Shown piece by piece: positions 35,898 through 60,020 of a stretch of DNA of 64,000 bases (position 1 is the stretch's first letter; each line of letters begins with the position of its first letter). The notes under the pieces were generated by a model. That model was not told the origin of the DNA and ran no database searches. It saw only the letters and a program-made list of their open reading frames with translations. The position numbers were made by a program, and so were the translations under genes. The stretch lies in the NCBI RefSeq assembly GCF_030269645.1, contig NZ_BSTR01000001.1:115740-179739 (forward strand). Reading direction: 5' to 3'. Origin of the DNA: Actinokineospora sp. NBRC 105648. Lineage in GTDB: Bacteria; Actinomycetota; Actinomycetes; Mycobacteriales; Pseudonocardiaceae.

Positions 35898-38800
35898 ATG
35901 GCGAATGAAGAGAAGCTGCTCGACCACCTGAAGTTCGTCACCGGCGAGCTGCGCCAGGCGCACCGGCGGCTGCGCGAGGTCGAGGAGCGGGACGCCGAAC
36001 CGATCGCGATCGTGGCGATGAGCTGCCGGTTCCCCGGTGGGGTCGGCAGCCCCGAGCAGCTGTGGGACTTGGTCGCCGCGGGTACGGACGCCATCGGCCC
36101 GTTCCCGGCCGACCGGGGCTGGGACCTGGACGGGCTGTTCGACCCCGACCCGGACGTGCCGGGCACCAGCTACGGGCGCGAGGGCGGCTTCCTGCCCGAC
36201 GCGGCGGAGTTCGACGCCGCGCTGTTCGAGGTGTCGCCGCGCGAGGCGACGGCGATGGACCCGCAGCAGCGCGTGCTGCTGCAGGCCTGCTGGGAGGTCT
36301 TCGAGCGGGCGGGTATCGACCCGAAGTCGTTGCGCGGCAAGCCGGTCGGGGTGTTCGCGGGGACCAACGGCCAGGACTACGCCAGTGTCATCGCCGCCGA
36401 CCCTGAGGCCGCCGAGGGGTATCTGGCGACCGGTAGCGCCGCGAGTGTCCTTTCCGGACGAATCTCCTACACCTTCGGGCTCGAAGGGCCTGCGGTCACC
36501 GTCGACACGGCGTGCTCCAGCAGCCTGGTCGCGCTGCACCTGGCCATCCGGGCGCTGCGCTCGGGCGAGTGCACCCTGGCGTTGGCCGGTGGTGTGACGG
36601 TGATGGCCACGCCCGCGGCGTTCGTGGAGTTCAGCCGCCAGCGCGCGCTCGCCCCGGACGGCAGGTGCAAGGCATTCGGCGACGGCGCTGACGGCACTGG
36701 CTGGGGTGAGGGCGTCGGTGTCCTGCTCGTCGAGAAGCTCTCCGACGCTCAGGCCAACGGGCACCAGGTGCTCGCTGTGGTGCGAGGGTCGGCGGTCAAC
36801 CAGGACGGTGCGTCCAACGGTCTGACCGCGCCGAACGGGCCCGCGCAGCAGCGGGTGATCCGGGCGGCGCTAGCCTCGGCCGGGCTTGAACCATCCGATG
36901 TGGACGCCGTGGAGGCGCACGGAACCGGCACCCGGCTCGGTGACCCGATCGAGGCGCAGGCGCTCCTGGCCACCTACGGGCGCGACCGGGCGACGCCGCT
37001 GTGGCTGGGTTCGGTGAAGTCGAACATCGGGCACACCCAGGCCGCCGCCGGTGTCGCCGGTGTGATCAAGATGGTGCAGGCGCTGCGGCACGGTGTGCTG
37101 CCCGCGACCCTGCACGCGGATCGGCCGTCGTCGCACGTGGACTGGTCGGCCGGTGCCGTCGAGCTGCTCACCGAGACCCGGCCGTGGCCCGCCGTCGACC
37201 GCCCGCGCCGGGTGGCGGTGTCCTCGTTCGGGGTCAGCGGCACGAACGCCCACACCATCCTGGAACAGGCCCCCGAGCCTGAGCCTGCGGCGGCCGCCCC
37301 CGCGCCCGCCCTGGTGCCACTGGCCCTGTCCGGTCACACCGCCGACACCCTGCGGGCCCAGGCCGCGCGGTTGGCCGAGTTCCTCGCGGAGTCCGACGCC
37401 GCGCTGCTCGACACCGCATACTCCCTGGTCACCGGGCGTGCCGTGCTGCCGCACCGGGCTGTGGTCGTCGCGGCTGACCGGGCTTCGGCGATCGCCGCGT
37501 TGACCGAGGTGGCGCAGGGGCGCGACCTCGCCCAACGTGGCGAGGCCGGGGTCGCGACACCTGGCAAGCTCGTGTACCTGTTCACCGGTCAGGGATCCCA
37601 GCGCCCGGGGATGGGTGCCGAGCTGTACCGGGAGTTCCCGGTGTTCGCGGCTGCCGTCGACGCGGTGCGCGCGCGGGTCGAGTTCGCCGACGACGAGTCT
37701 GTGCACCAGACCGTCAACGCCCAAGCGGCGCTGTTCGCCCTGCAGGTCGGGCTCTTCCGGCTGCTGGAGTCCTGGGGCCTGCGGCCAGACGTCCTCTTGG
37801 GACATTCGATCGGCGAGTTGGCCGCCGCGCACGTCGCCGGTGTTCTCTCGCTCGATGACGCGTGCGCACTGGTCGCCGCTCGCGGACGGCTGATGCAGGC
37901 GTTGCCCACTGGCGGTGCCATGCTCGCGGTCGAGGCCGACGAGGTCACTTTGCCTGCGGGCGTTGACCTCGCCGCGATCAACGGTCCGCGTTCGCTCGTG
38001 GTGTCCGGTGACGAGGACGCGATCGACGCGCTCGAGGCCCAATGGCGCGCGGAGGGCCGGAAGGTCAAGCGGCTCACCGTCTCGCACGCGTTCCACTCGC
38101 ACCGCATGGAGCCGATGCTCGAGGAGTTCGCGCGGGTCGCCGAGCGGCTCACGTTCCACCCGCCCCGGATTCCCCTGCTCGCCACGGCGACCGGCGCGGT
38201 GGACACGCCCGGCTACTGGGTTCGACAGGTGCGCGAGACTGTTCGTTTCGCCGACGCCGCCGCACGCCTGCCCGAGAGTGCCCGCTGTCTGGAGCTGGGT
38301 CCAGATGGTGTGCTCAGCGCGTTGGTCGGTACGGGTGTTCCCCTGCTCCGTGCGGGTCGTGACGAACCGACGACCGCCGTGCGCGCCCTGGCCCGCGTCC
38401 ACACCCAGGGTGCCCGGCCCGACTGGACCGCCCTACTGCCCGGTGGCACCCGGGTCGACCTGCCGACTTACCCGTTCGAGCGGCACGCCTACTGGCCGCG
38501 CGCCACCGTCCGCGCCGATGTCACCGCTGCCGGACTCGGTACCGCCGACCACCCGCTGCTGGGCGCCGCCGTGTCGCTGGCTGCGGGCGGTGGGTTGCTG
38601 CTGACCGGGCGGCTCTCCGCGTCGAGCCACGGGTGGTTGACCGATCACCGCGTCCTAGGCGACGTCCTGGTCCCGGGCGCCGCGTTCGTGGAGCTGGCCC
38701 TGCACGCCGGTGAGCAGGCGGGCTGCCCCACCCTGGACGAGTTGGCCATCGAGGCTCCGCTGGTGCTCAGCGGGACCGCGCAGGTGCAGGTCAGCGTGGG

Positions 38801-41800
38801 TGCGCCTGCGGACGACGGTACCCGCGCGGTGCAGATCCACTCCCGGGTCGACGAGGGTGAGTGGATCAGGAACGCCGACGGTGTGCTGAGCCCGGCGGTG
38901 ATCACGCCCGAGCCGCTGACCTGGCCGCCGATCGCCGAGCCGGTCGACCTGACCGGGTTCTACGAGCGCGCCGCCGAGGCGGGCTTCCGCTACGGCCCGC
39001 TGTTCCAGGGGTTGACCGCCGCCTGGCAGTCCGGCGACGAGCTGTTCGCCGAGGTCGAGCTGCCCGAGCCCGGTCACCGCGACGCCGCGCGGTGCGGCCT
39101 GCACCCGGCCCTGCTCGACGCCGCCCTGCACCCCACCGGCCTCGACCCGGCTCGCGCCGGCCTGCCGTTCTCCTGGTCCGGGGTCGCCCTGCACGCTGTC
39201 GGTGCCACCAGTCTGCGCGTGCGGATCACCGCGCGGGGCCTGGACACCTACGCGCTCACCATCACCGACCCGACCGGCGCGCCCGTGGCGACGGTCAGCG
39301 CTCTCGGCCTGCGCAAGCCGACGGCCGTCCGGCCGAGTGACTCGCTGTTCGCCCTCGACTGGACCCATCTGTCGCTTGTGGACAGCCAGGCGACCGTACT
39401 CCGGGCCCAACCCGCCGACTGGGAGCCTGCCGACGCCGTGGTCTGGCGGGTGCCGACCGGCGCCGTCGAGTCCACTGTGGTCGATGGGCTGACGGCCCTG
39501 CGGACCTGGCTGGACGACGACCGGTTCGCCGAGTCCACCCTGGTCGTGCTGACCTCCGGCGCGGTCGCGGCGGGTCCCGGCGACGATGTCACCGATCTCG
39601 CCGGTGCCGCGCTCGGTGGCCTGGTGCGGTCCGCGCAGTCGGAGAACCCCGGCCGGTTCCTGCTGGTCGACGCCGATACCGAGCCCACCGACGCCGTCAT
39701 CGCGGGCATCCTCGCCCTTGACGAGCCGCAACTCGCGTTGCGCGGCAACGAGATCCTCGCGCCCCGGCTCGCGCGCGCGGCCACCGGCCTCGTGCCGCCC
39801 GAGAGCGCGGCCTGGCGTTTGGAGCCCGGCGCGGGCTCACTCGACGAGTTGGCACTCGTCGAGGTTCCGGATCGCGAGCTCGCGCCCGGCGAGGTGCGGA
39901 TCGCGGTACGCGCCACCGGTCTCAACTTCCGCGATGTGCTGATCGCCCTCGGCTCGTACCCGGAGCGCGCGCTCATGGGCTCCGAGGGTGCGGGCGTCGT
40001 GGTCGAGGTCGGTGCCGAGGTCGCGGACCTGGCGCCTGGGGACCGGGTGTTCGGCCTGTTCTCCGGCGGCTTCGGTCCTTCGGTCGTGGTCGACCGGCGG
40101 ATGGTCGCCCTGATGCCGAGCGAGTGGTCGTTCACCCAGGCGGCCTCGGTGCCGATGGTGTTCCTCACCGCCTACTACGGGCTGGTGGACCTCGCCGGGC
40201 TGCGCGCGGGTGAGTCGGTGCTCATCCACGCGGCGGCGGGTGGGGTCGGCATGGCGGCCGTGCAGGTCGCGCGGCACCTGGGCGCCGAGGTCTACGGCAC
40301 CGCGAGCCCGGCCAAGTGGCCCGCGACCGGCCTGCCCGCGGACCACCTGGCGTCTTCACGCGATCTTGGCTTCGCCGACCGGTTCCCGGCCGTGGACGTG
40401 GTGCTCAACGCGCTCGCGGGCGAGTTCATCGACGCGACCGTGCGGCTGCTCAAGCCGGGCGCCCGGTTCATCGAGATGGGCAAGGCCGACCTGCGCGCCG
40501 ACATCCCCGGCTACCGGGCCTTCGACCTGGGCGAGGCGGGCCCGGACCGGCTCGCGGAGCTGCTCACCGAGGTGCTCGACCTGTTCGCCCGCGGGGTGTT
40601 CACGCTGCTGCCGGTGCGCGCGTGGGACCTGCGGGACGCGCCGTCGGCGTTCCGGTTCGTGGGCCAGGGCAAGCACATCGGCAAGAACGTGCTGACCGTG
40701 CCCCAGACCTTCGATCCACAGGGGACGGTGCTGGTCACCGGCGGTACCGGGGTCCTCGGCGCGGCGCTCGTCCGGCACTTGGTCGCCGAGCACGGCGTGC
40801 GGCACCTGGTGCTGGCGAGCAGGCGTGGCCCGGACGCCCAGGGCGTGGCCGAACTGCTGGACCTGCCCGCGGACATCCGCGTGGTGGCCTGCGACGTGGC
40901 CGACCGGACCGCGCTCGGGGCGCTGCTGGCCGACATCGCGCGTGATCGACCGCTCACCGGTGTCGTGCACGCCGCGGGCATCGCGGACGACGGCGTGCTG
41001 GCCGCGCTGACCCCCGAGCGGATCAGCGCGGTGCTGCGCCCCAAGGCTGAGGCCGCGCTCGCGTTGCACGAGCTGGTCGGCGACGTGGCCGTGTTCGCGA
41101 TGTACTCCTCGGCCTCATCGGTGTTCGGCTCACCCGGCCAGGCCAACTACGCCGCCGCGAACGCGCTGCTCGACGGCCTCGCCGCCCACCGCAGGGCCCG
41201 TGGGCTCGCTGGGTCGTCGTTGTCCTGGGGCTTGTGGGCTCAGGCCAGCGCTATCAGCGGCGGCCTCGACACCACCGACTTGGCACGCGCCACCCGGATC
41301 GGCGGCGCGTTGAGCACCGAGCAGGGGCTCACCCTGTTCGACGCCGTGCTGCGCAGCCCGCTCGCGCACACGGTGCCCGTCCGGTTCGACCCCGCTGTCG
41401 CCCGCGGGTTGACCCCGTTGCCCGCGTTGCTGCGCGGTCTTGTCCGGACCCAGACCCGCCGGGCGGCCACCGCCACCGACGCGTCACTGGCTGACCGGCT
41501 GGCCGCGCTTCCCGCCGCCGAGCGGACGCGGGTGCTCGTGGCCATGGTCCGGACCGAGGTCGCCGCGGTCCTGGGTCACTCCACTGTGGACGGCATCGAC
41601 CCGGCCCGCCCGTTCAAGGAACTGGGGTTCGACTCCCTCACCGCCGTGGAGCTGCGCAACCGGCTGGCGGGGGCGGCGGGTCTGCGCCTGCCCGCGACGC
41701 TGATCTTCGACCACCCCACCCCGGCCGCGCTCGCCGCGTACCTGCTCTCGCTCATGCCCGACACCCAGGCTGCCGCTCCGCGGGCGCGGGTCGCCACCTC

Positions 41801-44800
41801 GACCAGGGTCGACGAACCGATCGCCATCGTGGGCATGAGCTGCCGGTATCCAGGGGGTGTTGAGTCCCCTGGGGACCTGTGGCGGTTGGTCGCCGAGGGG
41901 CGCGACGTCATCGGCCCGTTCCCGACCGATCGCGGGTGGGACCTCGACTCGCTCTACGACCCGGACCCCGAGCGGGTCGGCACCACCTACACCCGCGCGG
42001 GCGGGTTCCTCGACGGCGTAACGGGTTTCGACGCCGCGCTGTTCGGCATCTCCCCGCGTGAGGCGACCGCGATGGACCCCCAGCAGCGCCTGCTGCTGGA
42101 GGCCACCTGGGCGGCGTTCGAGGCGGCGGGCATCGAGCCCGGCTCGGTGCGCGGCACCTCCGCCGGGGTGTTCGTCGGTGTCGCGTCCTCCGGCTACGGC
42201 GTCAACGTGCGGCTGCCCGAGGGGGTCGAGGGGCACTTCCTGACCGGCAGCTCCACGAGCGTCGCCTCCGGCAGGCTCGCCTACACCTTCGGGTTGGAGG
42301 GGCCCGCGGTCACCGTGGACACCGCCTGTTCCAGCAGTCTGGTGGCGCTGCACCTGGCCGTTCAGGCGTTGCGGAACGGCGAGTGCGACCTGGCGCTGGC
42401 CGGTGGCGTGACCGTCATGGTGAGCCCTGGGATCTTCACGGAATTCAGTCGCCAGAAGGGGTTGTCGGTCGACGGCCGGTGCAAGTCGTTCGCCGCGGGC
42501 GCCGATGGGACCGGGTGGTCCGAGGGTGTCGGCGTGCTGTTGGTCGAGCGGTTGTCCGACGCCCAGCGCAACGGCCACGAGATCTTGGCTTTGGTGCGGG
42601 GAAGCGCGGTCAACCAGGATGGCGCGTCCAACGGCCTCACCGCGCCCAACGGTCCCGCCCAGCAGCGCGTCATCCGCGCCGCGCTGGCCAACGCGGGACT
42701 GAAACCATCCGATGTGGACACCGTCGAGGCGCACGGCACCGGTACCGCGCTCGGTGACCCCATCGAGGCCCAGGCGCTCCTGGCGACCTACGGCGCCGAG
42801 CGGACCGAGCCGCTGTGGCTGGGCTCGCTGAAGTCCAACCTCGGCCACGCCCAGTCCGCCGCGGGTGTCGCGGGCGTGATCAAGGTGGTGCAGGCCCTTC
42901 GCAACGGCCTGCTGCCCGCGACCCTGCACGTCGACGAGCCGTCACCGCACGTCGACTGGACCGCCGGGGCGGTGTCGCTGCTGACGTCGGCGCGGCCGTG
43001 GCACGCGGGCGATCGGCCGCGCCGGGCGGGGGTGTCGTCCTTCGGGGTAAGCGGCACGAACGTGCACACGATCATCGAGGAGGCGCCCGCCGCCGCGCGT
43101 CCCGCAGGTGTCAAGCCCACGCACCCGGTGCCGATCGCTGTGTCGGCGCACTCGCCGCAAGCGCTTGCCGCCCAGGTCGAACGGCTGCGCGCGCTGGTCG
43201 AGCGCGACCCGGCCATCCGGCCGGTCGACCTCGCGCACTCGCTTGCCGCCCGCCAACTCCAGGCACACCGCACGACCTTCGCGGCTCTGACCAGGGAAGA
43301 TGTGCTGGCGGGTCTGACGCCCGGTACCGGGGGGCGCGCGTCCACGGGTGTGGCGTTCCTGTTCACCGGTCAAGGTTCGCAGCGCGCGCGGATGGGGACG
43401 GAGCTTCACGCGGCGTTCCCGGTATTCGCCTCGGCGTACGACGAGATCCGAGCGCGCGTCGACTTCGGCGACGCTCTCGACCAGACCGGCGACGCGCAGC
43501 CCGCGCTGTTCGCGCTCGAGGTGGCGCTGTTCCGGCTGCTGGAGTCCTGGGGCCTGGTGCCGGATGTCCTCATCGGACACTCGGTCGGCGAGCTGGCCGC
43601 CGCGCACGTCGCCGGGATCCTGTCACTGGACGACGCCTGCGCCCTGGTCTCCGCCCGCGCCCGCCTGATGCAGGCGTTGCCCACGGGCGGTGCGATGCTG
43701 GCGGTCGAGGCCGACGGAGCTGACGGGCTCGACCTGCCCGCCGGAGTCGACCTGGCCGCGGTGAACGGACCCCGGTCACTGGTGGTGTCGGGCGACGAGG
43801 ACGTGATCGCCGCCCTGGAGGTCCAGTGGCGCGGCGAGGGGCGCAAGGTCAAGCGGCTCGCGGTGTCCCACGCGTTCCACTCGCACCGCATGGACCCGAT
43901 GCTCGACGAGTTCGCACGGGTCGCGGCCGGTCTGACCTACCACTCACCGTCGATCCCGATTTTGTCCACTTCGGATGGTGACCCGACGTCGCCGGACTAC
44001 TGGGTGCGCCAGGTCCGCGGCACGGTCCGGTTCGCCGACGCGGTGTCCCGTGCCAGCGTCGGCACCTACCTCGAGCTTGGTCCCGACGGCGTTCTGTCCG
44101 CCTTGGTCGACCACGGCATCCCGACGCTGCGCGCGGGGCGTGCGGAGGTTGAGACGCTGCTCGCCGCCGTCACCGCCGCGCACACTCGTGGCGCCCCGCT
44201 GGACCTGCGCGCCCTCACGCCCGGCGGCAGGCGCGTCGACCTGCCCACCTACGCGTTCCAGCGCGAGCGGTTCTGGCTCGACATTGCCCCAGAGGTCTCA
44301 GAGGTCCCTGAGTTCACCGCCGACCCGGCCGAGGCCCTGTTCTGGGCGGCTGTCGACGCCGGTGACGTCACCACCCTCGCGACCACGCTCGACCTGTCGA
44401 CGGCGGGGATCGACGCCGTGCTGCCCGCGCTGGCCACCTGGCGGAAGGGCCGCCAGTCTCAGGCCACTGTGGACTCTTGGCGCTACCAGGTTTCCTGGGT
44501 GTCGGTCGAGGCCGCCACCCCCGCCACCGGGACCTGGCTGGTCACGGACGCGCGAGTCGCGAAGGCGCTGCGCTCGGCCGGTGTCGAGGTCGTCGAAGAG
44601 CCCGTTCCCGGTCTGGCCGGGGTGGTCGCCGTCGAGCCGGACCTCGCCGAGGTGCTCGCGCTCGTCCACGCGGCCGAGGCACCGCTGTGGGTGCTGACCA
44701 GGGCCGCTGTGTCCTGCGTGGATGCCGCAGGGCGTCCAGGGGCCGCGCAGGTGTGGGGTCTGGGCCGGGTGGCCGCGTTGGAGCACCCAGACCGCTGGGG

Positions 44801-47800
44801 TGGTCTGGTGGACCTGCCCGCCGACTTGGACACGCGCGCCGCAGCCCGCTTGGCGGCGGTGCTGGGCGGCTCGGAAGACCAGGTCGCGATCCGTGAGTTC
44901 GGCGCGTACGCCCGCAGGCTCCGCCTCGCCGACTCGGTCGCGGCCCAGCCGTGGCGGCCCGATGGCACCGTCCTGATCACCGGCGGCACCGGGGCCCTGG
45001 GCGCGCACGTCGCCCGTGCCCTCGCCTCGCGGGGTACCCCGCACTTGATCCTCACCAGCAGGCGCGGCCTTGACGCGCCCGGCGCTGAAGCCCTCCGCGT
45101 CGAGTTGGTCGCCCTCGGCGCGCTCGTGGATGTCGTGGCTTGCGATGTCGCCGATCGGGCGGCATTGGCCGAGTTGTTGACGGACGAGGACATCGCTGCG
45201 GTCGTGCACGCGGCGGGTGTCACCGACGACGTCGCGATCGCCGCCCTAACTCCCGAGCGACTCACAGATGTCCTGCGCGCCAAGGTGGACGCGGCCGACA
45301 ACCTCGATGAACTGCTGCCCGACGCGGAGCTGGTCCTGTTCTCGTCGATCGCGGGCGTCTGGGGCAGTGCCAACCAGGCGGGCTATGCGGCGGGCAACGC
45401 CCACCTCGACGCGCTGGCCGAGCGCCGCCGGGCCCAGGGGCGCCGGGCGACCTCGGTCTCCTGGGGCCCGTGGGCCGACGCGGGCATGGCAGCACGTGGC
45501 GACGCCGCCGACTACCTGCGCAAACGAGGTCTCCGCCCGCTGGCGCCCGCGTTGGCGATCACCGCCCTCGATGCCGCCGTGGTCGATCCGGCGGCGTGCG
45601 TCACGGTCGCCGATGTCGATTGGTCCCGCTTCGCGCCGGTGTTCACCTCGACCCGGCCGAGTCCGCTGCTGTCCCTGGTGGCCCCGGAGGAGCACCGCGA
45701 AGCCGACGCGGGGTTGCTCGAACTGTCTACTGTGGAGTTCCAGGTCACGCTGCTCGACCTGGTGACCAAGGCTGTCGGCGCGGTGCTGGGCCACCGGACG
45801 CCGGTCGATCCCGGCATCGCGTTCGCCGACCTGGGCTTCGACTCGCTCACCGCCGTGGAACTGCGCAACCGCCTGGCCGAGGCCACCGGACTGGCGCTGC
45901 CGACGACCACGGCGTTCGACCACCCCACGGCCACGGCACTGGCCACTCACCTGGTGGTCCTGCTCGGCGGGGACGCCGCCCCGGTCGCCGCTCCGGTGGC
46001 GGTGGCCACGACCGAACCGATCGCCATCGTGGGCATGGCGTGCAGGCTCCCTGGCGGCGTCCGGTCGCCGCAGGACCTGTGGGACCTCGTCTCGGCCGGT
46101 GCGGACGGCATCTCCGCGTTCCCGACCGACCGCGGCTGGGACGTCACTGGCGCGGACTTCGCCGCACTGGGCGGTTTCGTGCACGACGCGACCGGCTTCG
46201 ACGCCGAGCTGTTCGGCATCTCGCCCCGGGAAGCCACGGCGATGGACCCGCAGCAGCGGGTGCTGCTGGAGGCGTGCTGGGAGCTGCTCGAACGCGCGGG
46301 CGTCAACCCGACTTCGCTGCGCGGCAGCCAAACCGGTGTGTTCGTCGGCGCGTCCAACTCCGGCTACGGCCTCGGGTCCGACACGCCGGACGAGGTGGCG
46401 GGCCACCTGCTCACCGGCAGCGCCAACAGTGTGATCTCCGGTCGAGTCGCCTACACGCTGGGCCTCGAAGGGCCCGCGCTCACCGTCGACACCGCGTGCT
46501 CCAGCAGCCTGGTCGCCCTTCACCTCGCCGCGCAGGCACTTCGTCAGGGCGAGTGCACCTTGGCGCTCGCGGGCGGCGTCACCGTGATGCCGACCCCAGC
46601 CGCGTTCACCGAGTTCGCGCGCCAGGGTGGCCTCGCCACCGACGGCCGCTGCAAGGCCTTCGCCGAGTCCGCCGACGGTACCGGCTGGTCGGAGGGGGTC
46701 GCGGTGATCCTCGTCGAGCGGCTCTCCGACGCGCTGGCCCAGGGGCGGGAGATCCTGGCCGTGGTGCGGGGCAGCGCGGTCAACTCCGACGGCGCGTCCA
46801 ACGGCCTCACCGCGCCCAACGGCCCGTCCCAGCAACGGGTCATTCGGCAGGCGCTCGCCAACGCGGGCCTGGTTCCGTCCGATGTGGACGCTGTGGAGGG
46901 GCACGGCACCGGCACCCGGCTGGGCGACCCCATCGAGGCGCAGGCGCTCTTGGCGACCTACGGCGCCGACCGGGCCGAGCCGCTGTGGCTCGGCTCGCTC
47001 AAGTCCAACATCGGCCACGCCCAGGCCGCCTCCGGCATGGCGGGCCTGATCAAGATGGTGCAGGCCATCCGGCACGGCATCCTGCCCAAGACACTGCACG
47101 CGGATACGCCTTCGTCCCATGTGGACTGGTCGACCGGTGCTGTACGGCTGCTCTCCGAACCGCGTGACTGGCCCATGACCGACCGTCCTCGCCGTGCGGC
47201 CGTCTCGTCGTTCGGTATCAGCGGCACCAATGTGCACACGGTCATCGAACAGGCGCCGATTGTCGAATCGGTGGCGGCCCACCGGGTCGCGCCGCCGGTG
47301 CTGCCGTTCGTGATCTCCGCTCGTGGGCCCGAAGCCCTGCACGCCCGCGCCGCCGAGCTGCGAGACCTCGACATGGACCCGCTGGACCTCGCGCACTCCC
47401 TGGCCACCACACGGGCGGTCCTCGACCACCGAGCCGTCGCCTTCAGTGCCGACGCGGTGACCGCGTTGGCCGCCGGGCATTCCGCGGCCGACCTGGTCAC
47501 CGGCGTCGCGGTGCCGGGCAAGCTCGCGTTCCTGTTCACCGGCCAGGGCTCCCAGCGGCCGGGCATGGGCCACGAGCTCCGGGCCGCGTTCCCGACCTTC
47601 GCCAACGCCCACGACGAGATCCGCGCCCGGGTCGGGTTCGCCGACGACGACAAGATCCACCAGACCGTCAACGCCCAAGCCGCGCTGTTCGCGCTTGAGG
47701 TCGCCCTCTTCCGGCTCGTGGAGTCGTGGGGACTGCGACCCACCGCGCTGGCAGGTCACTCCATCGGCGAGCTGGCCGCCGCGCACGTCGCCGGGGTGCT

Positions 47801-50800
47801 GTCGCTGGACGACGCGTGCACGCTGGTCCGCGCCCGTGGTCGGCTCATGCAGGCGCTTCCCACAGGTGGCGCCATGCTGGCCGTCGAAGCGGACGAGGTC
47901 GAGCTGCCCGCAGGGTTGGACCTGGCGGCGGTGAACGGCCCGCGGTCGCTGGTGCTCTCAGGGGACGAGGAGCCGATCGTCGCGCTGGCGTCAGAACTGC
48001 GGGCCGACGGCGTGCGGGTCAAGCGCCTGACGGTGTCGCATGCGTTCCACTCGCACCGCATGGAGCCGATGCTCGCCGAGTTCGCGCAGGTCGCGGCCGG
48101 TCTGACCTACCGGGCGCCACGCATCCCGATTTTCACCACCTCCTCCGGCGAGATCGACACGCCGGACTACTGGGTGCGCCAGGTCCGCGAGACCGTGCGG
48201 TTCGCCGATGCCATTGACGGACTGCGCACGGCCGGGGTCACCACGATGCTGGAGCTGGGCCCGGACGGCACGTTGACCGCGTTGGCGCGGCAGGGCGGCG
48301 AAGGTGTCTTCGCCCCGGCCTTGCGGGTCGATCGACCGGAGCCTGCCGCGCTGCTGCACGCCGTGGCCACCGCGCACGTGCACGGCACCGAGGTCGACTG
48401 GTCGGCCGTGGTCGCGCCGTGGGGTGGTCGACGGGTCGACCTGCCGGTGTACCCGTTCCAGCGGCGGCGGTTCTGGCTGGACGCGGCTGGGCGGTCCACT
48501 GTGGACCTGGATCGGTATGTCGTCGAGTGGGAGCGCTTGCCTGAGGTCGCGGGCGAGCGGCGCCGGTGGGCTGTGCTCAGCGCCGACGGCGTCGTACCAG
48601 CCGACTTGGCCGAGGTGCTGGACGCGGTCGGTGTCCGGTTCGGTGCCCCGATCGACGCCGATGGCGTGCTCTGTCTGGCTGAACGACCTGAAGATCTGCT
48701 GCACGTGGTCGGTCTTGACATCCCGGTGTGGGGTATCACGCGGGGTGCGGTGGCCGTTGCCGCGAGTGATGTCCCCGACCCGACCGCGAGCGCGGTGTGG
48801 GGCCTGGGGCGGGTCGCGGCCCTGGAGCTGCCGCAGTGGCGCGGCCTGATCGACCTACCGTCCACTGTGGATGACGCGCGCCTGCTTCGGAGCGTCCTGA
48901 GCGGCGACGAAGACCAGGTGGCCGTCCGTGAGACCGGTGCGTTCGGCCGCAGGCTGCGCCGGGCGGCCAAACCCGCGGGCGCGCGACCGTGGCAACCGGG
49001 CACTGTCCTGGTGACCGGCGGGACGGGTGCGCTGGGTGGGCACGTCGCCCGGTGGCTGGCGGGCCGTGGGGCGGCGAAGATCGTGCTGGCGGGCAGGCGC
49101 GGTCCGGACGCCCCCGGCGCGGCCGAGCTCGTCGCCGAGCTGACCGCTTTGGGCGCCGAGGCTGTCGCGGTGTCCTGCGATGTCGCCGACCGGGACGCGC
49201 TGGCCGCGTTGCTGGCTGAGCACCCGATCACCGCCGTGGTGCACACCGCCGGTGTCATCGGCGCGTCCCCGCTGGTCGAGACCACGGCCGATCACCTCGC
49301 GGAAGTTCTGCACGCCAAGGTGACCGGCGCGGCGAACCTGCACGAGCTGTGCCCGGACGTGGACGCTTTCGTGCTGTTCTCGTCGATCGCGGGCACCTGG
49401 GGCAGCGGCGGCCAAGCCGCCTACTCCGCCGCGAACGCCTACCTCGACGGCCTCGCCGAGCACCGTCGCGCACTGGGCCTGGCCGCCACCTCGGTGGCGT
49501 GGGGGCCGTGGGCGGGGTCGGGCATGCTCGCGGCCGAGGACGGCGAGGAATACCTGCGCAAACGCGGACTCACCGCGATGTCGCCGGAGCGGGCCATCGC
49601 GGCCCTGGCCCAGGCGGTCGACCACGGCGAGACGGCTGTTACCGTGGCCCAGGTCGATTGGGACCGCTTCGGCGCGACTTTCACCGCTGCCCGGCCCAGC
49701 CCGCTGCTCTCCGCTTTGATGCTGCATTCGACTGTTAATCGAAGGGTTGCTGGTTCGAGCCCCTTCGCGGACCTCCCCGTGGCCGAGCGCTTGCGCGCCG
49801 CGATCACCCTGGTCCGCACCGAGGCCGCCGCGGCGCTGGGGCATGACTCGGCGGACCGGGTCGCGCCGGACCGGGCGTTCGCCGATCTGGGCTTCGACTC
49901 GCTGACCTCGGTCGAGCTGCGGGACCGGCTGGTGACCGCCACCGGTCTCCGGCTTCCGGCCGGGGTCGTGTTCGACTTCCCGACCGCCATGGCGCTCGCC
50001 GCGCACCTCGTCGGTGATTCCACAGTGGACGATGTGCCGGCGCCGGTCGCGGTGACCGACGACCCGGTGGTCATCGTGGGTATGAGCTGCCGTTTCCCGG
50101 GTGGGATCGACAGTCCCGAGCAGCTGTGGGAGCTCCTGGTCGAACGCCGGGACGTGCTGGGGCCGTTCCCCACCGACCGCGGCTGGGACCTCGACACACT
50201 GGTCCACCCCGATCCGGACCACCCCGGCACCTCCTACGTCGACCGGGGTGCGTTCCTCACTGCGGCCGACCGGTTCGACGCGGACCTGTTCGGCATCTCG
50301 CCGCGCGAGGCCGTCGCGATGGACCCGCAGCAGCGGTTGCTGCTGGAGACCACTTGGGAGGTCTTCGAGCGGGCGGGCATTGATCCCCGTTCTCTGCGTG
50401 GCTCGCGGACCGGTGTGTTCGCCGGGACCAACGGTCAGGACTACACGCGGTTGACCCTCGCGGTCGACGTGCCGGAGGGGCATGTCGCGACCGGCGGCGC
50501 GGCCAGTGTGATGTCCGGGCGGGTCGCCTACGCGTTCGGGCTGGAGGGGCCCGCGCTGACCGTGGACACGGCGTGTTCATCGGCGTTGGTGGCCTTGCAC
50601 CTGGCCGCACAGGCGTTGCGCCACGGGGAGTGCACGCTGGCGCTCGCGGCTGGTGTGACCGTGATGGCGACACCCGGCGCGTTCGTGGAGTTCAGCCGTC
50701 AGCGCGGCCTCGCCGCTGACGGCCGCTGCAAACCGTTCTCCGACAACGCTGACGGCACCGCCTGGGGCGAGGGCGTCGGTGTGTTGTTGGTGGAGCGCCT

Positions 50801-53800
50801 CTCCGACGCCCGGCGCAACGGGCACCCGGTGCTCGCGGTCGTCGAGGGCTCGGCGGTGAACTCCGACGGGGCGTCGAACGGCCTCACCGCGCCGAACGGC
50901 CCATCGCAACAGCGCGTCATCCGGGCGGCGCTGGCCTCGGCGGGGCTCCGTTCGTCCGATGTGGACGTCGTGGAGGCACACGGGACCGGCACCGTGCTGG
51001 GCGACCCGATCGAGGCCGAGGCGCTGCTGGCCACCTACGGCCAGGACCGCGTCGACCCGGTGTGGCTGGGCTCGGTGAAGTCGAACCTGGGGCACACCCA
51101 GGCGGCGGCGGGCGCGGCCGGGGTGATCAAGGCGGTGCTGGCCCTGCGCCACGGGGTGCTGCCCGCCTCGCTGCACGCCGAGTCGCCGTCGTCGCATGTA
51201 GACTGGTCGACGGGCGCTTTGGAGCTGCTCGCTGATCCCCGCCCGTGGCCCAAGCGCGCGAATCCCCGTCGTGCGGCGGTTTCCGCGTTCGGCATCAGCG
51301 GCACGAACGCCCACGTGATCATCGGCGACCCGCCGATGTCTTCGACCCCCGAGCCCATCGACGGCCCGGCCTTCTGGCCGTTGTCCGCGCACACGCCGCT
51401 CGCGCTCACGGCGCGGGCCGGGCAGTTGGCCACGGCGCTGTCAGGTGAACTGCGGTCTGCGGTTGATGTCGGCCGCACGCTCGCCACCGGTCGAGCGGCG
51501 TTGAGCCACCGCGCGGTTGTGTTGTCCGGCGTGCCGGGGCTCGCGGCGTTGGCGGCCGGGACGAGCGGTCCTGGGGTGGTGCGGGGAACGGCGCGCCCGG
51601 GTCGCCCGATCGCGTTCCTGTTCACCGGTCAGGGTTCCCAGCGCGTGGGCATGGGGCGTGTCCTGCACGCCACCTTCCCGGTGTTCGCCGAGTCCTTCGA
51701 CGCGGTGTGCGCGCTGGTCGAACTCGACCGACCGCTGGCCGAGGTCGTCTTCGGCTCGGGCGGGGACCTGGACCAGACGGTCTACACGCAGGCGGGGCTG
51801 TTCGCGCTGGAAGTGGCGCTGTTCCGGCTGCTCGAGTCGTGGGGCGTCGTCCCGGACGTCCTCATTGGACATTCGATCGGCGAGTTGGCCGCCGCGCACG
51901 TGGCCGGGGTGCTGTCGCTGGACGACGCCTGTGCCCTGGTGTCGGCCCGTGGCAGGCTGATGCAGGCCCTCCCGCCCGGCGGCGCGATGCTGGCCGTCCA
52001 GGCCGACGAGGTCGACCTGCCCGCAGGTGTTGATCTCGCGGCGGTCAACGGTCCACGGTCGCTGGTGGTGTCCGGCGCCGAGGACGCCGTGGCCGCGCTG
52101 GAGTCGCAGCTGCGCTCCGAGGGCGGCAAGGTCAAGCGGCTGACGGTCTCGCACGCGTTCCACTCGCACTTGATGGACCCGATGCTCGCCGAGTTCGCGC
52201 AGGTCGCGGCCGGGTTGACCTACCACGCCCCGCGCATCCCGATCGCCACCACGGCCTCGGGCGACATCGACACCCCGGACTACTGGGTGCGCCAAGTCCG
52301 CGAACCCGTCCGTTTCGCTGACGCCGTGGCCGACCGTGACGCCACGTACCTCGAACTCGGCCCCGACGGTGCCCTGTCCGCGCTGGTCGAGGACAGCACC
52401 CCGCTGCTGCGCCGTGACCGCGACGAGGTCGAGACCGCGCTCACCGCGCTGGCACACGCCTACGTGCACGGCGCGACCCCGGACTGGGCCGCCGTGTTCC
52501 AGCCGTGGGGTGGTGGTGGGCATGTCGACCTGCCCACCTACCCGTTCCAGGGGGAGCGCTACTGGCAGCACGTCCCGCCCACAGGCGACGTGACCTCGGC
52601 GGGTTTGCGTTCGGCGGGTCACCCGTTGCTAGCCGCCGTTCTCACCCCGGCGAGTGGTGACGGGCTCGTCCTCACCGGGAGGCTCTCGCTGGCGACCCAC
52701 CCGTGGCTGGGTGAGCACCGCGTGCACGGCACGGCTGTTGTTCCCGGCACGGCGTTGCTGGACATCGCCCTGCACGCGGGTCACCTCGTCGCCCGACCGG
52801 TCGTGGACGAGCTGACTCTGCACGCGCCGCTCGCCCTGCCCGAGCGTGGCGCCGTCGAACTCCAGGTCACCGTCGCCGACGCTGCCCTGACGATCCACTC
52901 CCGTGCCGGCGACGGACCCTGGACCCATCACGCGTCCGGCACCCTCGCCGCGGACAACCCGACCGAGCACGCCGCCGCCGAGACCTGGTCGCTCGACACC
53001 GCGGACTCCGTCGACCTGGGCGATCACTACTCCAGGCTGTCGGCCGCCGGTCTGGACTACGGCCCGCTCTTCCAGGGACTCCGCGCTGTCTGGTTGGACG
53101 ATTCACCAGTTCAACCTGTGAACAATCCTGATGTTCACTTGTCCTCACGTAGAATTGTTGAACGATCTGCCTGGGCCGAGGTGGGGTTGCCGGGGCGGCC
53201 GGACGCGGGTGACTTCGGGGTGCACCCGGCGCTCCTCGACGCCGCCCTGCAAGCGATCGCCGTTGTGGGCAGTAGCAGCGTTGGTAGTGACGGGGCGGTT
53301 GGCGACGGGGTGGCCCGGGTGCCGTTCTCCTGGTCGGGTGTCCGGCTGCACGCGACCGGGGCCACCGAGCTGCGGGTGCGTCTCGCCCCCATCGGCCCGG
53401 ACACGATCGCCGTGCGGGCGGTCGACGCCGATGGCGCACTGGTGCTCACGATCGACTCGGTGACCCTCCGGGTGACCGCCGCGACCCGCCCGGACTCGTT
53501 GTTCGAGGTCCAGTGGGTGCCGGTCCCGCCCGCTGCCACCCAGATCGGGCTCGCCGTGGTCGAGCCGTCCACTGTGGACGAGGCGTTGACCGCCGTGCGA
53601 GGCGGCGGAGACCTCGTGGTCCTCACCCGAGGGGCCGTTGCCGCGATCCCTGGTGACGACATCACCGATCCGGCGACGGCCGCGATCTGGGGGCTCGTTC
53701 GTTCGGCCCAGTCCGAGCAGCCCGGCCGGTTCACCCTCCTCGACACCGACGACACCCTGCCGCCGAGCGCCGCCCACGGCGAACCGCAGGCCGCCATCCG

Positions 53801-56800
53801 CGACGGTCAAGTCTTGGTCCCCAGGCTTGCCCGCTTCCGTCCGACACCGCCCCCGGTCACGCCCTGGTACCTGACCCCCGGCGGTCGCACCCTCACCGAA
53901 CTCGACCACACCCCCGTCGTCGAAGCTCCGCTCGCCCCGACCCAGGTCCGTCTCGCCGTGCGCGCCGCCGGGGTCAACTTCCGGGACGTGCTCATCACGC
54001 TCGGCGAGTACCCGGAGGCCGCTGACCTGGGCTCCGAGGGCGCGGGCGTGGTCACCGAGGTCGGCCGGGAGGTGACCGGCCTGCGGCCGGGGGACCGCGT
54101 GTTCGGTCTGCTCGGCGCCGGATTTGGTCTACAAGCGACAGTCGACCACCGGTTGCTCGCGCCGATTCCCGACGGCTGGTCGTTCGCCGAGGCCGCCGCG
54201 GTCCCGATGGCGTTCCTCACCGCCTACTACGCGCTGGTCGACCTCGCGTGCGTCCGGCCAGGTGAACGCGTGCTCGTCCACGCCGCCGCCGGTGGGGTCG
54301 GGATGGCCGCCGTCCAGGTCGCGCGACACCTCGGCGCGGAGGTCTACGGCACCGCGAGCCCGGCCAAGTGGCCCGCCACCGGTCTCGCCGACGACCACCT
54401 CGCCTCCTCCCGCGATCTCGCGTTCGCCGAGCGGTTCCCGCAGGTGGACGTCGTGCTGAACGCCTTGGCCGGTGAGTTCATCGACGCGAGCGCGAGCCTG
54501 CTGAGGCCGGGTGGGCGGTTCATCGAGATGGGCAAGGCCGACCTGCGCGACGGCATTCCCGGCTACCGCGCGTTCGACCTCTGGGAGGCGGGTCCGGACC
54601 GCCTCGCCGAGATGCTCGCCGAGGTGGTGCGCCTGTTCGACGAATCCGCGCTCGCCGTGCCGCCGGTCCGCGCATGGGACATCGGGGACGCGAGTTCCGC
54701 GTTCCGGCATGTCGCCCAGGCCAAGCACATCGGTAAGAACGTGCTCACCGTCACCCGACCGATAGATCCACAAGGGACAGTGCTGATCACCGGTGGCACC
54801 GGGTCCCTCGGGGGTCTCTTGGCCCGCCACCTCGTCACCGCGCACGGTGCGACGAACCTCGTCCTGATCAGCAGGCGCGGCCCCGACGCCCCCGGTGCGG
54901 CGGAGTTGGCCGACGACCTCACCGCGCTCGGCGCGACCGTCGAGGTCATCGCTTGCGACGCCGCAGACCGCGCCGCGCTCGCCGAGGTCATCGCGGGCCG
55001 GACGCTCACCGCCGTGGTGCACGCCGCGGGAACCGTCGCCGACGGTGTGATCGAAACCCTTACACAGCAGCAACTTCATGCCGTTGACGACAAGGTCGTC
55101 GCCGCTCGCAACCTGCACGAGCTGACCCAGGGCCACGACCTCGCCCTGTTCGTCCTCTACTCCTCGGTCGCCGCCACCCTCGGCACCCCCGGCCAGGGCA
55201 ACTACGCCGCCGCCAACGCCCAGCTCGACGCGCTGGCCCAGCACCGGGTCGCCCGGGGCCTGCCCGCCGTCGCGCTGGCGTGGGGGCTGTGGGACCGGGC
55301 GAGCGAGATCAGCGACACCGCCGACCGCGATCGCGCCACCCGACTCGGCGCCCCGCTCTCCGACGCGGGCGGCCTCGCCCTGTTCGACGCCGCCATCACC
55401 GCCGGCCGCGCGCACCTCGTCCCGGCGAACCTCGACCTCACCCGGCTCCGCGGCGACGTTCCGGTGGTGCTCAGCGGGCTGACCAAGGCTCCGGTGCGTC
55501 GAGCCGCACCCGCCCGGCGGATCGAGGCGGGTCGGACCGTTCGGTCGCTGACCGAGCTGATCCGGGCCGAGGTGACCGCCGTGCTCGGCCATTCCACAGT
55601 GGACCCCGAGCGCTCGTTCACCGAGCTGGGCTTCGACTCGCTCACCGCCGTCGAGCTGCGCAACCGGCTCGGCGCGGCCACCGACCTGCGGCTGCCCGCC
55701 ACGCTCGTCTTCGACCACCCGACTCCCGCCGCCCTCGCCGTCCACTTGCACGCGCTGACCGAGCCACGACGCCCGGTGGCGGCGGAGGCGAGCGACCGCC
55801 GCACCGACGAGCCGATCGCCATCGTCGCGATGAGCTGCCGCTTCCCCGGTGGCATCGACTCACCCGAGGCGCTGTGGCGGGTCGCCGCGGACGGGGTCGA
55901 CGCTGTCGGGGCGTTCCCGACCGACCGCGGCTGGGACCTGAACACGTTGTTCGACAACGGAAAGCCCGGTAGCACCTACGCCCGCACCGGTGGGTTCCTC
56001 GACAGCGCGGGCGCCTTCGACGCCACCCTCTTCGGCATCTCGCCGCGCGAGGCGCTGGCCATGGACCCGCAGCAGCGGCTCCTGCTCGAGGCCGCCTGGG
56101 AGGTCTTCGAACGGGCGGGCATCGACCCGCTGTCGGTGCGCGGCACCCAGGCCGGTGTGTTCATCGGCGCCGCCGCCTCACTGTACGGCGCGGACATCGC
56201 GGCCGCCGAGGTCGAGGGCCACCGGATGACCGGTGCCGCGACCAGCGTCGCGTCCGGCAGGCTGTCCTACTTCTTCGGCTTGGAAGGCCCGGCCGTCACC
56301 GTCGACACCGCGTGTTCGAGCAGCCTCGTCGCGCTGCACTGGGCGGTGCAGGCGTTGCGCGAGGGGGAGTGCACGATGGCACTCGCCGGCGGTGTGGCCG
56401 TGATGGCGACGCCCGGGATGTTCACCGAGTTCTCCCGCCAACAGGGCCTCGCCGCCGATGGGCGCTGCAAGTCCTTCTCCGCCGACGCCGACGGCACCGG
56501 GTGGTCCGAGGGCGTCGGGATGCTGCTGGTCGAGCGACTGTCCGACGCGATCGAACGCGGTCACGAGGTTTTGGCCGTGGTGCGGGGAAGCGCGGTCAAC
56601 CAGGACGGCGCGTCCAACGGGCTCACCGCGCCCAACGGCCCGGCGCAGCAGCGCGTCATCCGCCAGGCGTTGCGCCGGGCCGGTCTCACGACGTCCGATG
56701 TGGACGTTGTCGAGGCGCACGGCACCGGTACCACGCTCGGCGACCCGATCGAGGCCCAAGCCCTCCTGGCCACCTATGGGCAGGACCGGGAAACCCGGCT

Positions 56801-59800
56801 GTGGCTGGGATCCCTCAAGTCCAACATCGGTCACGCGCAAGCCGCCGCCGGTGTCGCGGGCATCATCAAGGTCGTCCAGGCGATGCGCCACGACACCCTG
56901 CCCAAGACGCTGCACGCCGAGCAACCCTCCCCGCACATCGACTGGAGCACCGGCAACGTCGCCCTGCTGACCGAGCCGCGCGCCTGGCCGCGCACGGACC
57001 GCCCGCGCCGCGCAGGCGTCTCGTCGTTCGGCGTCAGCGGGACCAACGTGCACACGATCATCGAGGAAGCGCCCGCGGTGCCGCCGGTCGAGCGCGCGGC
57101 GGCGCCGACACCCCCGGTCATCCCGTGGCCGGTCTCGGCCGGATCAGCGGATGCGTTGCGGGAACAGGTGAAGCGGCTCGCCGAGGTGGATGCTCCGCCC
57201 ATTGAGGTTGCCCGCGCGCTGGTCGCAACCCGTGCCGATCTGCCCCACCGGGCGGTCTTCCTCGGTGCCGAGAACCTGCTTGCCACACCGGCCGCCGAGG
57301 GGGTCGCCACACCCGGTCGAACAGCTTTCCTGTTCACCGGCCAGGGATCGCAGCGCGCGGGCATGGGCAGTCAGCTGCGCGAGCAGTTCCCGGTCTTCCG
57401 CGCGACCTTCGACGCCATCCGCGAGCGCGTTCCGTTCGACGACACCGCCATCGACCAGACCCAGCACACCCAGGCCGCGCTGTTCGCGCTGCAGGTCTCG
57501 CTCTACCGGCTCGTCGAGTCCTGGGGCTTGGTGCCCGATCACCTCGTCGGCCACTCGATCGGCGAGCTGGCCGCCGCGCACGTCGCCGGGGTGCTCTCCT
57601 TCGACGACGCGTGCACGCTGGTCCGCGCCCGAGGCCGCTTGATGCAGGCGCTCCCCACGGGCGGCGCGATGCTGGCCGTGGAGGCGGAAAGCCTGGAACT
57701 GCCGGACGGCGTGGACTTGGCGGCGGTCAACGACCCGCGGTCTCTGGTGGTGTCCGGCGCCGAGGACGCCGTGGCCGCGCTGGAGTCGCAGCTGCGCGCG
57801 GAGGGCCGCAAGGTCAAGCGGCTGACGGTCTCGCACGCGTTCCACTCGCACTTGATGGACCCGATGCTCGCCGAGTTCGCCCAGGTCACGGCCGGAGTGG
57901 CCTATCACTCACCCGCCATCCCGATCACCACGACGGCCGCGGGCGAGATCGACACCCCGGAGTACTGGGTGGGTCAGGTCCGCTCGACCGTCCGCTTCGC
58001 CGACGCGGTGGCGCAGCTGCCGGACGCGGGTGTCACCACGCTGGTCGAACTAGGGCCCGACGGCACGCTCACGGCGCTCGCCCAGCAGTGCCTCGACGGT
58101 CGAGAGATCGTCGCGGTGCCGACCCTGCGAGCCGACCGCGACGAGCCGACCACGGTGCTCAAGGCCCTGGCCACGGCGTTCGTCCACGGCGCCAAAGTCG
58201 ACTGGGCCGCCGTCGTGGGCGACGGCCCGCGCGCGACCCTGCCCACCTACGCCTTCGACCGCACCCACTACTGGCTCACGGCCGAACCCGAGGCCGAGGA
58301 CTCCTGGTTCTACCGCGCCGAATGGACCGAGATCACTCCCGGCGCGCCGGCGCGCGGGAAGTGGCTGGTGGTCGGGGAAGGCGAGCCCGAAGTCCTCGAC
58401 GCACTCCGAGTCGAGGGCATTGATGCGGTGCCCACCTCGATCGACGCTGTCGCCACTACCGAAGCTGACGGTGTCTTGGTCCTGCCCGCTGACGCGGCGA
58501 CTGTCCTGCGGGTGCTGAAGACCGCCAACGCGCCGGTCTGGTCCACGACCCGCTCCGCCGCGAGCGATCCCGACCAGGCCCAGGTCTGGGGCCTCGGCCG
58601 AGTCGCCGCGCTCGAGCAACCCCGCCAATGGGGTGGGCTGGTCGACCTCGACGGTGATCTCCGCGCGCTGCCACGGATTCTCACCGGGGGTGAGGACCAG
58701 GTCACCCTGCGGGACGGCAGGGCCCTGGGCAGGCGCCTGGTCCGGGCCGAGCGGCCATCCGGTCCACAGTGGACACCAATCGGTCCGGTGCTGGTCACCG
58801 GTGGTACCGGGGCGTTGGGCAGGCACGTCGCCCGCTGGCTGGTCAGCCGCGGCGCCACCCACCTCATCCTGGCGAGCCGCAGCGGCCAAGACGCCCCCGG
58901 CATCAAGGACTTCGTCGCCGACCTGGGCATCCGCGTGGACGTGGTTGCCTGCGACGTCGCCGACCGCGCGGCGGTGGAGCGGTTGGTCGAGTACCGGCCC
59001 GCTGTCGTCATCCACGCCGCCGGGATCGCGGGTACCACCCCGATCGCCGACACCGACCCGGCCACGTTCGCCGAGGACCAGCGGGCCAAGGTGCTCGGCG
59101 CCCGTCACCTCGACGAGCTCCTGCCGGACGCCGAACTCGTCCTGTTCTCCTCCATCGCGGGCGTCTGGGGCAGCGGCGGCCAGTCCGCCTACGCCGCCGC
59201 AAACGCTTTCCTCGACGCGCTCGCCACCCGCGGCCGGGCGAGTGGCCGCCGGGTCACCGCGATCGCGTGGGGCCCGTGGGCGGGCGCCGGCCTCGCGGCG
59301 GGCGAAGCCGAGGCGTACCTGCGTGAACGCGGGCTGCGGCCGATGGCGCCGGGCCGGGCGGTGGCCGCGCTCGGTGCCGCCCTCGCCGGGAACCAGCCGT
59401 GCGTGACCGTCGCCGACGTCGACTGGGAGCGGTTCGTGCCCGCGTTCACCAGCGCCCGGCCCAGCCCGCTGCTGGCCGCCTTCCGCAAGGAGGAGCAGCC
59501 CGACGGGCTCACCGACCTCGCCGTCGACCTGACCGGAATGTCTGATGTGGACCGTGAGCGGGCGCTGCTCGACCTGGTCCGCGGGCAGGCCGCCGCGGTG
59601 CTCGGCCACGACGGTGCCGCCGCCGTCCCGGCCCGGGCGGGCTTCGCCGACCTGGGCTTCGACTCGCTGACCGCCGTGGAGATCCGCAACCGGCTCGCCG
59701 AGGCCACCGGGCTGCCGCTGCCGACCGCGCTGATCTTCGACTACCCGACCCCGGTCACCCTGGCCGCGCACCTGGGCACCGAGTTGCTCGCCGCCACCCC

Positions 59801-60020
59801 CGACCCCGCCGAGGCCGAGCTGCGCCGCGCGCTGGCCGAGCTGCCGATCGCCCGCCTGCGCGAGGCGGGCGTCCTGGACGTGCTGCGCTCGCTGGCGGGA
59901 CTCACCGCCGCCACCACTGACCCCGCCGACCCCGCCCCGCCCGCCGAGTCGGCGGCCGAGATCGACCTGATGGACGTCGACGCCCTGATCCAGTCCGCTT
60001 TCGACAACCCGGGCGCGTGA
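35898..60020 (+). CDS. Giant modular type I PKS, modules 4-8 (8040 aa)
   Basis: ATG 35898 follows GGGAG by about 9 bases. N-terminal docking coil: [26 protein letters not shown]. Five modules: 4 (KS Cys206, AT Ser637, DH His917/Asp1074, ER about 1444, KR about 1614, ACP Ser1913); 5 (KS Cys2144, AT Ser2562, KR about 3028, ACP Ser3316); 6 (KS Cys3534, AT Ser3955, KR about 4373, ACP Ser4668); 7 (KS Cys4893, AT Ser5326, DH His5607/Asp5781, ER about 6128, KR about 6298, ACP Ser6581); 8 (KS Cys6806, AT Ser7220, KR about 7634, ACP Ser7923). All ATs carry HAFH, so malonyl. The tail has [17 protein letters not shown] and an acidic end, the same docking class as the truncated PKS at 2-4150. Anomalies are a tRNA-like segment in the module 6 linker and an AT-rich insert in the module 7 DH. 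No thioesterase. Confidence 0.98.
35998..41750 (+). other. PKS module 4: KS-AT(malonyl)-DH-ER-KR(B-type)-ACP
   Basis: Fully reducing. [12 protein letters not shown] and [21 protein letters not shown] and [18 protein letters not shown] with Tyr1751. The ER section [16 protein letters not shown] is shared exactly with module 7, and differs from the fully reducing module at 8850-14520 (EVFGTASASKWAATGL), so 4 and 7 are close duplicates. Confidence 0.87.
41815..45960 (+). other. PKS module 5: KS-AT(malonyl)-KR(ambiguous stereotype)-ACP, with dimerization element
   Basis: AT GHSVGE/HAFH. Dimerization element [16 protein letters not shown] at about 44330-44380. The KR has both TDD (Asp3110, Asp3111) at the B-type position and Trp3155 at the A-type position. 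The catalytic Tyr3163 is in [10 protein letters not shown] hydroxyl is predicted, but its configuration cannot be assigned from motifs. Confidence 0.85.
46015..50010 (+). other. PKS module 6: KS-AT(malonyl)-KR(A-type)-ACP
   Basis: KR lacks LDD ([10 protein letters not shown]) and has Trp4501 and Tyr4509, predicting an L-hydroxyl. The KR-ACP linker holds the tRNA-Asn-like segment (49723-49763). The ACP is otherwise normal ([12 protein letters not shown]). Confidence 0.86.
49723..49763 (+). other. tRNA-Asn 3'-half-like segment embedded in the PKS reading frame
   Basis: TTCGA (49727-49731), loop CTGTTAA (anticodon GTT at 49734-49736) and TCGAA (49739-49743) form a perfect 5-bp anticodon stem with a canonical 7-base loop. 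GGGTT follows as variable loop, then GCTGG and TTCGAGC as T-stem 5' strand and T-loop. Similarity stops after about 49763: the 3' T-stem should read CCAGC but reads CCCTT. There is no D-arm or acceptor stem, so this is a remnant and not a gene. It is translated in frame ([13 protein letters not shown]). Confidence 0.75.
52062..52205 (+). repeat. Near-identical AT segment, copy 1 (module 7), paired with 57744-57887
   Basis: 144 bases covering the C-terminal half of the AT, including the HAFH motif. By eye, 140 of 144 bases match the module 8 copy, with no gaps. Flanking AT sequence is much more divergent, which suggests recent gene conversion. Confidence 0.85.
53098..53168 (+). other. AT-rich in-frame patch with nested inverted repeats inside the module 7 DH
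   Basis: About 43% GC over 53101-53165 against over 70% around it. Outer arms are GTTCAAC (53110-53116) and GTTGAAC (53158-53164). Inner arms are GTGAACA (53119-53125) and TGTTCAC (53133-53139) with a 7-base loop. A TAGAAT hexamer lies at 53151-53156. It encodes about 20 residues absent from the other DH domains. It has the look of an operator/promoter region rather than coding DNA. Confidence 0.75.
55810..59780 (+). other. PKS module 8: KS-AT(malonyl)-KR(A-type)-ACP
   Basis: KR lacks LDD ([10 protein letters not shown]) and has Trp7757 and Tyr7765, so an L-hydroxyl is predicted. The AT shares a 144-base near-identical segment with module 7. The ACP (Ser7923) is followed by the C-terminal docking domain. 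Confidence 0.86.
57744..57887 (+). repeat. Near-identical AT segment, copy 2 (module 8), paired with 52062-52205
   Basis: The partner of the module 7 segment, offset by 5682 bases. The four differences lie in three codons (tcc/gcg, ggc/cgc, gcg/gcc). It ends where the two ATs diverge at gcg versus acg. Confidence 0.85.

Follow-up and report, generated by a model that had tools for sequence, protein, structure and literature searches.

A segment of the host's own tRNA-Asn(GTT) gene stands in frame inside a modular polyketide synthase (PKS) gene of Actinokineospora sp. NBRC 105648, and by our own estimate it is nearly certain that this piece was derived from tRNA-Asn and inserted. Sequence of tRNA found outside tRNA genes is usually taken for what an integrative element left behind. 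Here, four unrelated places in one bacterial family each carry a solitary internal piece whose ends are nearly fixed, one of these places being within the coding sequence of a megasynthase, and such a recurrence of nearly equal ends hints at a so far undescribed route of tRNA sequence into chromosomes. The case is concrete and testable, both for another entry route of tRNA sequence and for the gain of residues in PKS linkers.

The tRNA-Asn segment in the polyketide synthase gene

Within the window, by which we mean the whole stretch of 64,000 nucleotides analysed, the piece is identical to the tRNA gene at every base from nt 24 to nt 59 (Table 1), the gene itself lying on another contig than the PKS gene (G000:C15:43335-43407, minus strand, G000 being the window's own genome). 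A BLAST search of positions 49700-49790 against that genome gave 38/39 identical bases over 49724-49762 (E=4.8e-12), base 60 being C in the piece and T in the host tRNA-Asn. The remaining 26 matches had E values of at least about 0.03 (best 0.0295), and the core of the piece was covered by just one of them (query 31-64, E=8), which falls within the tRNA-Lys gene C7:192865-192937. An exact 36-mer would turn up in the genome by chance with P about 4e-15 on a uniform-base estimate, and the 17-base anticodon arm, TTCGACTGTTAATCGAA, is present at two places there, one in the PKS gene and one in the tRNA gene. The original prediction had recognised a stem-loop with a GTT anticodon, a variable loop and a 5' T-arm as matching actinobacterial tRNA-Asn; alignment to the host gene bears this out, the identity over 36 bases leaving no substantial difference between the two. 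The piece keeps the 5' strand and the loop of the T-arm but lacks the T-stem 3' strand, the acceptor and the greater part of the D-arm. The placement in a KR-ACP linker was likewise right, Pfam domains of both kinds being found on either side. Read in the PKS frame, the codons of the piece are CTG CAT TCG ACT GTT AAT CGA AGG GTT GCT GGT TCG AGC CCC.

Table 1. Position of the tRNA-Asn-derived piece and of the surrounding PKS features in the window
Feature	Coordinates	Strand	Basis or content
tRNA-Asn(GTT)-derived insertion, nt 24-59	49724..49759	+	36/36 identity to G000:C15 tRNA-Asn
Insertion content			D-stem last bases, anticodon arm, variable loop, T-stem 5' strand, most of T-loop
Possible extension to nt 62, with a mismatch (T60 to C)	49760..49762	+	BLAST 38/39; agreement at two bases could be coincidental
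Translation of the insertion in the PKS frame (14 residues)	49722..49763	+	Missing from five orthologues
KR domain, upstream of the insertion	48999..49514 (about)	+	Pfam PF08659
ACP domain (PP-binding), downstream of the insertion	49812..50009 (about)	+	Pfam PF00550
Modular PKS ORF, 8040 aa, carrying the insertion	35898..60020	+	Open reading frame; five congeners have orthologous frames of 7802-7921 aa

No complete cloverleaf can be drawn from the piece, and ARAGORN reported no tRNA in the window. The place of the piece was not listed by an RF00005 search at E<=10, a search that is uninformative on other fragments because it misses even this one. A function as structured RNA was considered and rejected: with its flanks the piece folds no better than shuffled sequence (z = -0.28), and the anticodon arm is not predicted to form in the context of the PKS mRNA. 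No function is implied, and nothing suggests that the piece works as a tRNA or as an att site.

That the linker gained the piece, rather than always having held it, was examined in orthologous modules. The module was searched for in 100 genomes (own genome included), of which 15 are other members of the genus; a module-like match at E<=1e-30 was present in 29/100, and a syntenic module in five congeners (G004, G005, G008, G011 and G015). From SPLL to LVR the linker counts 33 aa here vs 19, 22, 22, 22 and 22 aa in the orthologues, and without the tRNA residues it comes to about the orthologous length. The insert-free linker that was to be looked for in homologous clusters is what these five modules have, neither the peptide nor the bases being recognisable there; in the 15 kb around each of them the best ungapped match to the 38-mer is 20-22/38, and none of the five encodes the peptide by other codons. 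Identity to the five orthologues is 84-86% for the ACP-KS flank and 58-62% for the KR-side flank, other modules of the same cluster giving values as high as 61.8% along a shorter alignment; in bits, the lead of the orthologues at the KR flank is moderate, 363-415 vs up to 311 for the other modules of the cluster. In each of the five loci, both flanks find their best match in one and the same module. A recombination breakpoint at the piece was rejected, identity to the orthologues varying by domain on both sides with no step at that point. The KR-ACP linkers of the window and the orthologues hardly align.

Bare pieces in other genomes of the family

When 390 genomes of the family were scanned for the 36-mer with up to 3 mismatches allowed, 257 matched, and 7 of them had two copies (confirmed for all 7). 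Both copies are complete tRNA genes in three of these (G276, G280 and G025), and the other four carry a bare second piece: the window genome (G000), a congener of it (G009), Saccharothrix sp. ALI-22-I (G149) and Umezawaea endophytica (G427), the last two both placed in the Pseudonocardiaceae by the NCBI taxonomy. Nt 24-59 of tRNA-Trp, used as a control, matched 378/390 family genomes with two copies in 2 (G306 and G374); the recurrence of bare pieces comes from scans for tRNA-Asn, and this control does not settle a preference for that tRNA.

The pieces outside the window lie between an IclR-type regulator gene (PF01614, PF09339) and an L-PSP/RidA-type gene (PF01042) in the congener, between convergent GH42 and GH67 genes in Saccharothrix, and between two ABC-transporter genes, with a RamC-type lanthipeptide synthetase gene alongside (a lanthipeptide operon), in U. 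endophytica. The left end is at nt 24 (nt 22 in the congener) and the right end at nt 59-61, so that the segment from nt 24 to its right end measures 36-38 bp. Were the ends uniform in the gene, all four pieces would agree within 3 nt at both ends with P about 4e-6, a rough figure given that the search itself required nt 24-59 as a minimum. The four sites have no neighbour genes in common, and no similarity between their flanks exceeds the 95% shuffle level (2/6 right-flank pairs equal it), so the shared unit is the piece; compared with the flanks of the tRNA gene, only the right flank in the congener rises above that level (23 vs 19). No decayed further copies scoring above shuffles lie beside the window, congener or Saccharothrix pieces. 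As with the five PKS orthologues, relatives have insert-free sites: the Saccharothrix site is without the piece in four Saccharothrix genomes spanning it (L158-L161), and the congener's site in seven genus members spanning it (the window genome among them; L178, not one of the seven, aligns on one side only), although the gap there is >100 bp longer in the congener than in its relatives, which means that more than the piece changed. Judged from these comparisons, the PKS insertion appears to belong to a recurring type whose limits hardly vary.

A wider collection of 84,980 species was scanned with a degenerate pattern for nt 24-59 and a non-A base at nt 23. Eight stretches were found in all: two complete tRNAs (L147 and L151), a tRNA-Asn whose anticodon arm is duplicated (L149), three partials running to the tRNA 3' end (L148, L153 and L154) and, as bare pieces, those of Saccharothrix and Umezawaea only. 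A stricter form of the pattern had no match in this collection. The scan covered tRNA-Asn of similar sequence, pieces with A at nt 23, such as that of the congener, being missed and the window genome and those near it being perhaps absent; the statement that bare pieces occur in one family only thus holds for tRNA-Asn of this general sequence. Among the titles and abstract openings listed by literature searches, none told of an internal tRNA fragment of such a kind.

The Umezawaea locus appears to have a longer history. In U. endophytica the pristine copy lies in a 276-bp gap that measures 121 bp in relatives, and two other Umezawaea species carry a decayed copy at the same site (30/38 and 29/38, with shuffle maxima of 20 and 21). 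We compared four stretches of the gap with three queries, gaps allowed, and two of them (c1 and c2) resemble older copies: their score against the G037 piece was unmatched by any of 2000 shuffles, and against the tRNA piece they gave p 0.0005 and 0.0025. For c1 the comparison with G428 was not significant (p 0.07), and the fourth stretch was negative. Left of the pristine copy, the reverse complement of the piece also scores fairly high (p 0.01; forward 0.002), and for this reason older tRNA-Asn copies in the gap are likely but not certain. Whether the Umezawaea copies might be a conserved element preceding AmfB was considered and rejected: matches were present in 90/199 genomes, and among the best 30 AmfB-type loci, the 27 outside Umezawaea match the piece at 15-18/38, the range of shuffles. 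Between the ABC-transporter genes of U. endophytica, the gap at about 9678-9908 of L155 also contains, together with the tRNA-Asn-like copies, short ORFs with a stretch resembling a particular 10-residue peptide.

An assembly or contamination artefact is hardly credible as the origin of the PKS piece. The genome is a draft in 149 contigs, but it is rated 100% complete and 0.07% contaminated, the piece lies in frame inside a 425-kb contig, three other assemblies hold similar pieces, and in Umezawaea the same site is occupied in three species.

Attachment-site and spacer readings

The original prediction had offered either a past site-specific integration and excision, the piece being an att core, or a permissive linker that captured tRNA DNA. 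Capture has held up, whether the source was DNA or RNA, and the att reading has not, given where the pieces end. Partial tRNA copies at the ends of elements are described in PMC9897764, and the attR/attP partial tRNA genes of tyrosine-integrase phages, ICEs and AICEs resemble the PKS piece in being partial tRNAs away from the functional gene that contain anticodon-arm and T-arm sequence. The 11 such partials met in viral contigs (see below) run, however, from about the anticodon arm through the 3' end, whereas the PKS piece is internal, single, in a coding sequence and with no element seen.

Viral contigs (IMG/VR) were searched with two overlapping patterns (51 and 26 stretches) and one further search, which together gave 62 loci, one row each. 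Eleven of the 62 rows are att-type partials of tRNA-Asn, nine of them flagged by script and two (L191 and L203) added by eye for having a 5' side that is not tRNA; three (L193, L228 and L229) have one surrounding in common. All 11 run through the T-stem 3' strand and the acceptor to the tRNA 3' end, as do the partials L148, L153 and L154 of the collection scan. The piece in the PKS gene and the three others end at nt 59-61 instead, and the att reading is therefore unsupported. In that reading, an integrative element using tRNA-Asn would have entered the PKS gene and later been lost, leaving the piece as its footprint. This tRNA is indeed in use by viruses, and in its anticodon arm a perfect inverted repeat encloses a loop of 7 bases, the arrangement of tyrosine-integrase cores. 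We nevertheless hold such a footprint to be very unlikely, since, besides the difference in ends, the arm has no further genomic copy apart from the tRNA gene that could flank an element (a copy without the arm would escape this comparison), and precise excision restores the sequence as it was before insertion, so that no 36-bp core stays behind. On both sides the piece is surrounded by a single PKS ORF (35898-60020). No phage record contained the 38-mer in its A49 form. Two plasmid records did, the place listed for them belonging to a match of 73 bases to tRNA-Asn (with a second place in one of the two), and no plasmid record contained the G49 form. The whole tRNA-Asn matched 1037 phage records, and the 60 matches listed cover 93-100% of the tRNA.

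Another known system in which a tRNA piece of this size was captured as a unit is the CRISPR spacer of Thermococcus nautili, which came from a viral tRNA, spacers there being about 36 bp (PMC9897764). That spacer stands in a CRISPR array, unlike the PKS piece, around which direct repeats are at shuffle level (score 21 vs a 95% shuffle level of 23). A CRISPR-like target duplication was rejected, as direct-repeat scores were below the 95% shuffle level at all six loci tested; for the U. endophytica piece the score was 21 vs 22, and the aligned stretches are translation starts.

Inverted repeats gave a different picture. In the window, positions 49400-50100 contain an imperfect inverted-repeat match between the left and right sides of the piece, scoring 28 vs a 95% shuffle level of 24 (maximum 32), and in Saccharothrix an inverted repeat around the piece is also above that level (22 vs 21).

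Source and route of the inserted sequence, and further tRNA-like loci

Compared with the tRNA-Asn of their own hosts, the pieces carry T60C in the window, A37G and A43G in the congener, and A59G in both Saccharothrix and U. endophytica, whose pieces are identical 38-mers with G59 although the tRNA-Asn of both hosts has A59. In these two genomes the resident gene may thus not be the source; G59 is present in tRNA-Asn genes of other genera of the family, which makes an outside donor possible.

The most likely mechanism, to which we give about an even chance, is a short-patch templated insertion, in which a replication template switch or end joining would have copied or captured a small patch. 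The internal segment of tRNA-Asn (nt 24 to 59-61, 36-38 bp) entered the KR-ACP linker in the lineage of the present species, with its ends presumably set by the folded tRNA or by the tRNA gene, and it was probably retained for being in frame, stop-free in that frame and in a linker that tolerates changes of length. The complete identity to the host gene, the five orthologues without the piece and the pieces of similar limits at unrelated sites in three genomes speak for it; against it we count the G59 mismatch, the larger gap differences in the congener and U. endophytica, the low identity of the KR flank, and the inverted-repeat match around the piece in the window. Short-patch illegitimate recombination and templated filler likewise produce short templated insertions without the flanks of the source, but we know of no preference there for one tRNA with nearly fixed ends, which is what the present pieces display. 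The recurrence of one tRNA with the same ends is the point at which a plain patch process is weakest as an explanation.

An RNA template is another possible route, which we consider unlikely as things stand. A tRNA-Asn fragment (about nt 24-61) would have been reverse transcribed and the cDNA joined into the chromosome, a reverse transcriptase being common to some members of the family, and if the source was RNA, the pieces would be a bacterial case in which a fragment of a cellular tRNA was retro-inserted. Nearly fixed ends with no tDNA flanks point in this direction, as do the copies of varied age at one U. endophytica locus. All five differences between pieces and hosts are A-to-G or T-to-C, at positions 37, 43, 59, 59 and 60, and would fit an RNA template by lying at or near positions 37 (t6A) and 58 (m1A), which are modified in such tRNAs; five changes are, however, too few to decide, A-to-G drift is ordinary, G59 is also found in the tRNA-Asn genes of other genera of the family, and position 58 itself is unchanged in 4/4 pieces.

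Less likely again is that the 38-mer is a small mobile or selected unit, for example a protein-binding palindrome or a coding cassette, spreading horizontally in the Pseudonocardiaceae. The identical 38-mers of Saccharothrix and Umezawaea, unlike the tRNA of either host, and the copies of varied age within one 276-bp gap are what such a unit would leave, but otherwise there is one copy per genome, and neither flanks nor neighbour genes are common to the sites. Returning from this unit to the pieces as a whole, we put forward only tentatively that some Pseudonocardiaceae have a process that repeatedly pastes nt 24-61 of tRNA-Asn into new places, biosynthetic genes included and in Umezawaea repeatedly at one spot, possibly by reverse transcription or as a 38-bp mobile unit.

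Some further loci met in these searches have unusual tRNA-Asn arrangements of their own. The 92-nt tRNA-Asn gene of Streptomyces aurantiacus JA 4570 (L149:4565-4656) has its anticodon arm tandemly duplicated, which may be an assembly error. In a Desulfotomaculum MAG (L153, about 1500-1620) the 3' part of tRNA-Asn is fused as a chimera to the 5' part of another tRNA. In a Planctomycetota MAG (L154, about 3974-4030) tRNA-Asn sequence begins at about nt 24, after unrelated sequence, and continues to the 3' end of the tRNA, in the manner of an attR. About 600 bp past the tRNA-Asn of G002, a tRNA-like RNA with its 3' half before its 5' half is encoded (L091:2155-2267); it matches the Rfam family YrlA (Y RNA-like, RF02553) with 38.4 bits (E=1.3e-6), under the gathering score of 69, and its fold is stable (z = -2.81).
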